A stretch of DNA of 64,000 nt from Thermosipho sp. (in: thermotogales) (GTDB lineage: Bacteria > Thermotogota > Thermotogae > Thermotogales > Fervidobacteriaceae). The notes under the pieces are model-generated. The model worked only from the letters and a program-made list of their open reading frames with translations, ran no database searches and was not told where the DNA came from. The position numbers and the translations under genes are program-made. Shown here piece by piece: positions 23,509 to 28,670 of this stretch (the first letter of the stretch is position 1; the number at the start of each line of letters is the position of its first letter). The stretch spans positions 186,001 through 250,000 of the forward strand of contig JACDOA010000002.1 of assembly GCA_017656335.1 (NCBI GenBank), read 5' to 3'.

Positions 23509-24933
23509 TCACTTACTATAATGTTCTTTCATCTTTTTGTTTTCTGGTAAATTCATTATTTCATTTAATACTCCTTCCACTTGTTCTTCTGATTTAGTCC
23601 TTGGATCTCTGAAAAGAAATTCTTTCAGCACATTTATATCACCTTTTATAAAGGCTTCTAATGCCATTTCCATTCTCATTATTCTGGGTCTTAAATAGTA
23701 TTTAATAACTCTTTCAGATAGGCGTGGACTTATTTTTTCAGGGTGTATACCATTAGAATCTACCCACGCGGGAATTTCAACTGCTACATTATCATCAATA
23801 CCTTCTATAATTCCGTTATTTAAAATGTTAACAACAAATCTTTGTTTTTTATCGTTAACTATTGAGTCTATAAATGGAACATGCTGTTCTCCACTAAATT
23901 TCTCGGGATTAATTATACTTTCAATTTCCTCTTTAAAAATTTCTATATTCAAATAATCTTTGTAAAGATTAAAATCTAATAGCTTAATACGTGGATTCAT
24001 AGAAACATAATTTGCAAGTTTGTTAATAGTCTTCGTTATAGCTCTAACGTTATCCTGATACCATTTCCAACCAATTTCAGAATCAGCGCCACCAAATTTT
24101 CCATACCATTTTTTCTTTGTCTCAAGGTTATAATGATATTTCCATGAAGAATTCCTCACAGTATCTCCTATTGGCATTTGTCCATAAAAGTTGTACATAT
24201 CAATAGCAGCAGGAGAAAGTTGATCATCAAAAGGATGTTTGGGTTCATATGTATTGTTTTTTAACCACTTGTCTAAGATTTCATAGCCATTTTTATCTTC
24301 ATAAAAAAATCTATTTAACCAAATACCGTGATTTACGCCAGCAACCTGCCAATCAATTTTGCTTATATCTAGTCCAATAATTTCTGCTATATGATGGACG
24401 CCATAGTGGCCGTGGCAAAAACCAACCATATTTATTGGAACATTCCTTAAAATCAACGTGGTTCCTTCAAATACTGGGTTTGCAGCTTGCAAAAGCCATG
24501 CACCTTTCTCAGCTTTTTCTTCAACCAATCTTGCAACCTTTAAAAACAAATTCAATTGATTAAAATTTGATATTGTGTAATAATCTGAAACCATATTAAA
24601 TTCCTGAGAGTCTATTCCTCTGTAATATCCCCATTTTTCCCCTATTTTTCTTACTTTTTCAAGATAGTTATGACCCCCAGCCATAGCTGTATTAATAACA
24701 AATTTAGCTCCATCAATTGCTTCTTCAAGGTTTGTAGTAGTTTTAAATTTCAAACTCGTTCCCATTTCTTCACTCAATTTATTAGCTAAAATAAATGTTG
24801 AATTTAATCTTGTTTCATCAATATCCATTAAGTAAATTTCAACATCTTCAAATTCTGGTATTTTTGTAAAATCACTAATGATCCTTAAAGAAAAAATTGC
24901 ACTTCCTGCACCTATCATTGCAACTTTGAACAT
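23509..24933 (-). CDS. aglA: GH4 alpha-glucosidase AglA (NAD+- and metal-dependent)
   Basis: A 474-residue GH4 enzyme. The Rossmann motif G-A-G-S-A-I-F-S-L is at residue 8. C-H-G-H-Y-G near 175 and G-V-N-H-G-I-W-L near 205 supply the Mn2+ ligands, and N-P-V-F-E-G near 154 belongs to the active site. From memory it resembles Thermotoga maritima AglA over the whole length, including the C-terminal [10 protein letters not shown] and the R-D-P-R-T-K-S end. These enzymes hydrolyse maltose-like alpha-glucosides by an oxidation-elimination mechanism. The RBS is GGGGT. The DNA directly upstream is a GH130 remnant. Confidence 0.93.
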
Positions 24934-24937
24934 ATTT

Positions 24938-25100
24938 TTACCCCCTTATCCACTTTTCTACCTTTTCTACATCAATTGTTGCAAGTGCTATGTAATTGTC
25001 GGCTGCACCATAGTAAACATAATACTTATCTTTATATCTCACCATTGTATCTGAAAATACTACATTAGGAACGCCTCCGAAAAATTCCCAACCATTTTCT
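24938..25100 (-). pseudogene. 3' remnant of a GH130 phosphorylase gene
   Basis: Minus-strand reading gives 53 uninterrupted codons and a TAA that correspond to the C-terminus of the intact GH130 gene at 27786-28670 (shared F-F/I-F-G-G-V-P-N-V-V-F-S-D, then Y-Y-V-Y-Y-G, then N-Y-I-A-L-A-T and E-K-V-E-K-W). There is no start codon and the rest of the gene is missing. The distance from its stop to the aglA ATG nearly matches the distance between the intact GH130 and the aglA remnant at 27534-27782. The frame is still intact, so the loss looks recent. Confidence 0.88.
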
Positions 25101-25356
25101 CAATAAATCTATACCTCTTTACAAATCTTTTATTTATTTAATAGGCCCTATACTTGTCTTTTGTATTTTTCGCTATATTCAAAAGCTCCGCTTTTTTCAT
25201 ATATTTTGAAATATTTGATTGTGTAATATTCAAAACATTTTCTATATCACAGTTACAAAGCTTTTTATGCCAATGCAAGAAAAGAATTCTTGTACGAGTC
25301 TTATCGGAAAAAAGTGTAACAATCTCTATTAATTTAATCACAATACCACTTCTCAA
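25088..25356 (-). pseudogene. ArsR-family repressor, broken by a stop codon and joined to the GH130 remnant
   Basis: A 72-codon frame (TTG start at 25356) carries a winged-helix domain: F-S-D-K-T-R-T-R-I-L-F-L, then L-C-N-C-D-I-E-N-V-L-N-I-T-Q-S-N-I-S-K-Y-M, close to arsenic- or metal-type ArsR sensors with the C-x-C before the recognition helix. It stops at 25138-25140, just after K-Y-R-A-Y. Reading on in the same frame gives I-N-K-R-F-V-K-R-Y-R-F-I-E-K-M, the expected ArsR C-terminal helix, so the stop is a nonsense mutation. The remainder then runs into GH130 sequence around 25090-25100 in another frame. A 10-bp palindrome, ACTATATAGT, upstream could be its old operator. Confidence 0.7.
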
Positions 25357-25398
25357 CCATATGACTATATAGTAATTAATTATAGCATTTTGAGTAAA

Positions 25399-27529: not shown

Positions 27530-27533
27530 TCTT

Positions 27534-27782
27534 TCATCTCCCATAGTATCTTTTCATCTCTTTGTTTTCCGGAAGATTTAGTATATCATTAAAACACCTT
27601 CAACTTGTTCTTCAGATTTAGTTTTTGAATCCCTAAGTAAAAAATTTTTTAATAACTCAAAATCACCTTTCACTGCTTTTAACACCATTTCCATTTTCAT
27701 TATCCTTGGAGTTAAGTAATATTTAATAATTCTTAAAGAAAAAAACAGTGCCCCCTGCGCCTATTATTGCAACCTTAAACAT
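27534..27782 (-). pseudogene. aglA remnant with large internal deletion
   Basis: The minus strand starts with ATG and codes for M-F-K-V-A-I-I-G-A-G, as in aglA. After about 15 codons it continues directly with sequence matching the last ~60 codons of aglA: Y-Y-L-T-P-R-I-M-K-M-E-M, then [10 protein letters not shown], then L-P-E-N-K-E-M-K. Two frame breaks are visible, one at the join and one before L-P-E-N-K. Both ends of the deletion code for similar residues (L-R-I-I-S in the N-terminal part, R-V-I-K-Y in the C-terminal part), which suggests recombination between short similar stretches. It lies 3 bases after the intact GH130 gene. Confidence 0.88.
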
Positions 27783-27785
27783 ATT

Positions 27786-28670
27786 TTATCCCCTCATCCA
27801 TTTTTCAACTTTTTCAACATCGACAGTTGCAAGTGCAATATAATTATCTGCTCCACCGTAATAAACGTAATATTTGTTTTTATATTTTACCATCGCATCT
27901 GAAAATACAACATTCGGCACCCCTCCAAAAATTTCCCATTCTTCTTCAGGTTCCAAAATAGGTTCTTCAGATCTCTTAATTAGCTTTGTAGGATTTTTTA
28001 AATCAAGTAAAATGAATCCTAATCTATATGTATATCTTGGCCCTTCTTCCACACCATGATACAGTAAAAGCCAGCCATATTCTGTTTTTATCGGAGGAGC
28101 ACCTGCTCCAATTTTTACATTATCCCAATAATCTTTTCTTGGAGAAGCAATTTTTACATAATTATCCCAATGAATTAAATCATCAGAAAAAGCCAGCCAT
28201 ATATCTGGTTCAATTCTGTGAATTAGTACATATTTACCATTAATTTTTTCAGGGAAAAGTGCAGCATCTTTATTGGGACTTTCAGGAAGTATGGGCCCAA
28301 ATCTGTCGTATGTAATAAAGTTCTTTGTTCTTGCCATTGCAACTTTTATTCCAGTTGGGGAATAAGCTGTATAGTTAATATAATAATATCCTTCAAGATA
28401 AGTTATTCTAGGGTCTTCAACACCGTATAATTCTTCCTGAATAGCTGGTGAAAAAACGGGTTTTTCAAATCTATTCCAATTAACTCCATCAACACTAACT
28501 GCATAACCAAATCTTGAAACCATATCTTCACCTTGTGCTCTATAAAGCATATGAAAAAGTTCTCCATCATAAACTACTGCAGGATTGAAGACAAATCTAC
28601 TTTCCCAAGAATGGTTGGGATTCGGGCCAAACAAAGGATTTTTTGGATGTCTTTCAAGTTTCAATTCCAT
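27786..28670 (-). CDS. GH130-family beta-mannoside phosphorylase or related enzyme
   Basis: A 294-residue five-bladed propeller protein without signal peptide. Motifs include R-H-P-K-N-P-L near the start, F-N-P-A-V-V-Y-D-G, Y-R-A-Q-G, G-V-E-D-P-R-I-T with the probable catalytic Asp near residue 93, and G-A-G-A-P-P-I-K. The family phosphorolyses beta-mannosyl linkages, releasing mannose 1-phosphate; some members are hydrolases. The phosphomannomutase at 40005 could use that product. The RBS is AGGAGG. It is followed by the aglA remnant. Confidence 0.88.
   Translation of the reverse strand: MELKLERHPKNPLFGPNPNHSWESRFVFNPAVVYDGELFHMLYRAQGEDMVSRFGYAVSVDGVNWNRFEKPVFSPAIQEELYGVEDPRITYLEGYYYINYTAYSPTGIKVAMARTKNFITYDRFGPILPESPNKDAALFPEKINGKYVLIHRIEPDIWLAFSDDLIHWDNYVKIASPRKDYWDNVKIGAGAPPIKTEYGWLLLYHGVEEGPRYTYRLGFILLDLKNPTKLIKRSEEPILEPEEEWEIFGGVPNVVFSDAMVKYKNKYYVYYGGADNYIALATVDVEKVEKWMRG

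Follow-up and report, generated by a model that had tools for sequence, protein, structure and literature searches.

We put at roughly 0.8 the probability that two long-diverged alleles of a single sugar-use operon recombined through an illegitimate junction and so gave the hybrid locus described here. In other words, the apparent duplication of a GH130-aglA gene pair is the scar of related Thermosipho-type DNA that was spliced into the same operon, a clear and ordinary instance of recombination between species. The window, the whole stretch of 64,000 nucleotides that was analysed (G000:C2:186001-250000), lies within a 408-kb contig. On its minus strand, the genes of interest run in the order LacI, two permeases, GH130, aglA remnant, six-hairpin gene, hairpin, truncated arsR, GH130 tail, intact aglA and phosphoesterase (Table 1). 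The initial annotation had described an intact aglA with a GH130 tail and an intact GH130 with a reduced aglA, with a six-hairpin gene and a broken arsR between them, and we recovered every one of these features in place.

Table 1. Positions of the features of the hybrid operon and its neighbours in the window
Feature	Coordinates	Strand	Basis or nearest relatives
Metallophosphoesterase gene, neighbour on the other side	22670..23449	-	adjoins the ars operon in G002, G003, G007, G010, G012
Intact aglA (GH4), allele A	23509..24933	-	nearest G001 and genus g5
GH130 3' remnant (second copy, last ~54 codons), allele A side of junction	24937..25104	-	
Illegitimate junction arsR/GH130 tail, short imperfect similarity	25095..25115	.	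alignment to G002 arsR and relatives' GH130
G002-lineage shared tract	25105..31806	.	left edge between 31.8 and 33.9 kb; fourfold-site and sliding identity
Truncated arsR, allele B; HTH retained, C terminus gone	25138..25356	-	PF01022; decayed arsR extends to about 25105
Left-over ars promoter TGCTATAAT and operator-like ACTATATAGTCATATGG	25357..25387	-	read from sequence; motif also upstream of arsR in five relatives
Intrinsic terminator-like hairpin, 3' of six-hairpin gene	25408..25423	-	scan and fold z -4.24
Six-hairpin-type gene, operon gene 3, allele B (3' half G003-like)	25454..27544	-	contiguity with aglA in relatives; sliding identity
aglA remnant, allele B, 1,173-bp in-frame deletion between TTATTA repeats, and frameshifts	27534..27783	-	
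Intact GH130, allele B	27786..28670	-	PF04041; 96% aa to G002
Two ABC transporter permeases, allele B	28694..30393	-	PF00528; 97% and 99% aa to G002
LacI-family regulator, allele B	30405..31382	-	PF00356; 96% aa to G002; tree 100/100 with G002
437-aa gene, upstream of LacI	31429-32742		
Binding-protein-like gene, upstream of LacI	32751-34004		

The operon in relatives and its state in the window

The initial annotation had suggested a comparison with relatives, and one contiguous GH130-aglA pair is indeed found in each of six of them (G001, G002, G003, G007, G010 and G012). None of the eight nearest relatives that we inspected closely has two such pairs, the maximum being one pair at the locus and a single close match to aglA; in G014 and G006, GH130 occurs without an adjoining aglA. 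The six-hairpin gene is the regular third gene of the operon in five relatives (G001, G002, G003, G007 and G012; not G010), and arsR with an SBF-family (acr3-type) transporter gene, followed by the phosphoesterase gene, is present in G002, G003, G007, G010 and G012. Because both are regular operon genes in relatives, the six-hairpin gene and arsR of the window are the normal continuation of the operon, and not inserts. The odd piece is the GH130 tail with aglA, which occupies the place of the end of arsR and of acr3. The operon of which both alleles are versions runs ABC transporter-LacI-GH130-aglA-six-hairpin, and then come arsR-acr3 and phosphoesterase.

Both intact genes were compared with curated models. 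Intact aglA scores 785.8 bits against the AglA equivalog NF041089, above the curated cut-off of 650, and has a structural match in PDB 1obb; its protein shares 89% of its amino acids with that of G001 and 80% with that of G002. Intact GH130 scores 347.9 against NF052550 (beta-1,2-mannobiose phosphorylase). As this falls below the curated cut-off of 450, and as the nearest solved chains are 1,2-beta-oligomannan and beta-1,2-mannobiose phosphorylases, a beta-1,2-mannobiose-type substrate may be taken as a lead only. The GH130 remnant matches GH130 at E=4.9e-26, and its frame is open to its own stop, a few nucleotides before the aglA ATG. The aglA remnant (E=8.8e-16 to aglA) consists of the first ~18 codons and the last ~66. 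The redundant aglA of allele B lost the 1,173 bp in between (391 codons, a multiple of three) between two TTATTA repeats, such that sequence near codon 18 is now joined to codon 409 at TTATTA, and it picked up frameshifts: the N part has one surplus T, and one nucleotide is missing from the C part. The TTATTA repeat is present at both deletion ends in G007, and G002 has TTGTTA at the first.

Several further observations concern the surroundings of the operon. In G001, the GH130 operon has moved from its usual place, with a lipoamide dehydrogenase-like gene 3' of the six-hairpin gene and the phosphoesterase gene on another contig (L063 and L153). The GH130 gene of G012 (L065) has an in-frame TGA in place of a conserved tryptophan codon, which may be genuine or a sequencing error. 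In the window, an NADPH-dependent FMN reductase-like gene (21872-22627), the nearest relatives of which are broken copies in G012 and G007, is inserted between the phosphoesterase gene and mutL, which adjoin each other in relatives. Three degenerate ~30-bp repeats at 21645-21805, with 66-bp spacing (TTCAATCCCT[C/T]ATAGG...), resemble a decayed CRISPR array; the TTCAATCCCT-type repeat has no further occurrence in the G000 genome at <=3 mismatches. Finally, a phosphomannomutase-like gene starts in G002 at the place where the window has decayed sequence (34100-34770), and in the window an open frame resumes at 34769-36073.

Two ancestries within one operon

Allele B (LacI, permeases, GH130, aglA, six-hairpin gene and 5' arsR) is common to the window and the G002 lineage, allele A (GH130 tail and aglA) goes with G001 and with the sister genus g5, and the two ancestries meet inside arsR/GH130. 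At the nucleotide level, the aglA remnant shares 81-82% identity with G002 and 67-73% with the other relatives. In the aglA tree, which was built, like the AU test below, without the outgroups G021/G027, the remnant is placed beside G002 (99/99), and the intact gene falls with G001, G007, G010 and G012 (100/100). The GH130 tail, with 85% nucleotide identity to G012, groups weakly on the G001/g5 side (82/96).

The step between the ancestries is also seen along the sequence. Third-position identity between the window and G002 is 51-58% in most flanking genes and in intact aglA, dropping to 45% in the short flanking gene at 18066, and is 71-79% in arsR, the six-hairpin gene, GH130, the permeases and LacI. 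At fourfold sites, identity to G002 is 68% in the tract versus 40% in the background (Fisher p=3.5e-27, a generous value, given partial dependence among sites inside one gene; the sliding profile shows the step plainly). Values of pS to G002 are 0.33-0.44 throughout the B tract, including the aglA remnant and arsR. The tract ends exactly at the arsR/GH130-tail junction, where arsR, already frameshifted, reaches about 25105 and then gives way to GH130 in a short patch of chance likeness. Its other end falls where the G002 contigs break, and upstream of 33.9 kb, identity to G002 is back at the background level of 74-84%.

The exchange was not a single one. The 3' half of the six-hairpin gene (25460-26450) is 86-91% identical to G003, and its 5' half is nearer G002. 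Because the 3' half is nearer G003 than G002, a further recombination edge lies inside this gene and more than one exchange was involved. In G001, third-position identity to G007/G012 is 65-74% in the operon genes versus 48-54% in mutL and the gene at 18557, and the G001 operon has, as judged from these comparisons, likewise been exchanged with the sister genus. The operon thereby looks like a place of repeated exchange. Our early reading, in which intact aglA alone was foreign, was weakened once mutL made G001 the sister of the window genome. Remnant dN/dS values are 0.22 for aglA, 0.26 for arsR and 0.06-0.13 for the GH130 tail (the last against a loose control, the whole gene and not the matching stretch), with counts too small to order events.

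Recombination, its alternatives and the order of events

In our reconstruction, linear foreign DNA would have undergone homologous recombination at one end and illegitimate joining at the other, the latter removing the remaining arsR, acr3 and the 5' part of GH130-A. Because two aglA genes were then present, aglA-B would have been free to decay, its frameshifts coming after the TTATTA deletion, and the cell is left with a single working gene of each kind, GH130-B and aglA-A. The “loss” of GH130 is most simply the breakpoint itself: the truncation coincides with the recombination junction, and a separate loss is unneeded. From the reciprocal loss that the initial annotation had proposed, we therefore keep the part that concerns the redundant aglA, which was lost by internal deletion.

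The same annotation had offered segmental duplication or insertion by recombination, and the data bear out the insertion and speak against the duplication. A segmental (tandem) duplication within the lineage, followed by reciprocal loss, would account for two partial copies in tandem and for the similar stop-to-start spacing that had been noted at the two GH130/aglA junctions, both of which are indeed tight. However, relatives have an equally tight junction, and the spacing is thus uninformative on duplication. The copies are, moreover, just 71.5% (aglA) and 79% (GH130) identical at the nucleotide level, with a pS of 0.72 between the GH130 copies, which is almost saturation at synonymous sites. 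The aglA copies have different nearest relatives, and constraining them as sisters is 22 log units worse and is rejected (AU p=0.00015). A recent duplication is thereby refuted, an ancient one would need two paralogues in the relatives, which have single pairs, and we consider this explanation very improbable. Points against the hybrid reading are the G003-like 3' half of the six-hairpin gene, which calls for more than one exchange, and the GH130 tail, for which, taken by itself and at only 168 nt, sisterhood with intact GH130 is not rejected (AU p=0.08). An assembly chimera or collapsed strain mixture could be imagined, since the sequence comes from a draft assembly in 33 contigs, but the remnants have a deletion and frameshifts of their own, lie inside the 408-kb contig and are 15-20% diverged from every sampled relative; we hold this to be more improbable still.

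Within the hybrid reading, either allele may have been the resident one, and we put the two orders level, each at a little under even odds. If B was resident, a short type-A piece with the GH130 tail and aglA, from a g5-like donor, would have replaced the end of arsR and acr3, with a gain of about 1.6 kb, a loss of about 1.2 kb and a homology anchor in the phosphoesterase gene. These sizes are like those of products of homology-facilitated illegitimate recombination (PMC3240628); intact aglA is nearer G007 at fourfold sites than the background (61% versus 44%, p=0.002), and the phosphoesterase gene groups weakly with g5 (80/92). Yet no sampled A-type donor is more than modestly close (66% at third positions), G001 is equally near in aglA, and the phosphoesterase gene is near G001 too, as descent predicts. 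If A was resident, a type-B tract of 6.7-8.8 kb would have entered from the G002 lineage, with its upstream anchor in 31.8-33.9 kb and its illegitimate joint within the GH130 of the resident. This order fits the more recent sharing of the B tract (pS about 0.37) and its exact end at the junction, as well as the grouping of mutL with G001 (95/97), whose aglA is also of type A. On the other hand, the resident A locus must then have lost the six-hairpin and ars genes earlier, and the exchange between G000 and G002 could run either way.

Possible consequences for control and relation to known events

The arsR gene of the window has 72 codons, versus 114-128 in four relatives (the G010 copy is itself broken), and is 76-78% identical to the 128-codon arsR of G002 at the amino acid level. 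ArsR is cut off after the helix-turn-helix, and the acr3-type transporter gene that stands 3' of arsR in relatives is gone. Still present, as in five relatives, are the ars promoter with its motif TGCTATAAT (25387-25379) and the operator-like repeat, and aglA may now be transcribed from this promoter. The terminator-like hairpin would separate the six-hairpin gene from the genes downstream; in total, the terminator scan gave no more than in shuffles, and promoter-scan sites were likewise no more numerous than in shuffles. It is conceivable, though we think it unlikely, that the splice rewired control: aglA would now stand behind a terminator, just 3' of the old ars promoter with a truncated repressor, and would be expressed constitutively and uncoupled from the sugar operon. 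Separately, relatives are losing the arsR-acr3 operon independently of one another (loci L062, L063, L061, L064, L066 and L153): it looks intact in G003, is frameshifted in G002, has an internal deletion in G007, is broken in G010 and absent in G014, and only its promoter is left in G001.

No new kind of system is seen here, and the event is of a known kind. In homology-facilitated illegitimate recombination, known from Streptococcus pneumoniae, Acinetobacter baylyi and Pseudomonas stutzeri, illegitimate ends with 3-10 bp of micro-homology have been described (PMC3240628). The window is alike in having one joint in short similarity and an insertion with a comparable deletion, and insertion is indeed coupled to deletion of resident DNA, as 3' arsR and acr3 are absent where the GH130 tail and aglA sit. 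It differs in being an old product known from sequence, with the homologous end and the donor inferred; the arsR/GH130 joint shows short imperfect similarity, which may include micro-homology of 3-10 bp. A comparable outcome with a left-over 3' gene has been proposed in Vibrio cholerae, where type VI effectors are displaced and orphan 3' genes kept (PMC5361080). There, too, a conserved locus received a new allele and kept part of the previous one downstream, whereas the left-over in the window is a defunct piece of a gene, and no selection for diversity is known for the carbohydrate operon around it. As in xenologous gene displacement, a divergent orthologue does the work while the other copy decays, and the surviving and decayed aglA genes are indeed of different ancestry; unlike in that process, displacement went gene by gene and gave a patchwork operon, in which GH130 and aglA come from different alleles.

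In an earlier study of Thermosipho, core genome fragments gave no sign of recombination between the three species lineages of that study (PMC6211235). The locus described here preserves a legible trace of recombination between lineages whose DNA differs by roughly 20-25%. Genes of this carbohydrate operon have been exchanged repeatedly, both between GTDB species and between genera, and the patchwork shows how an operon can be renewed one gene at a time.
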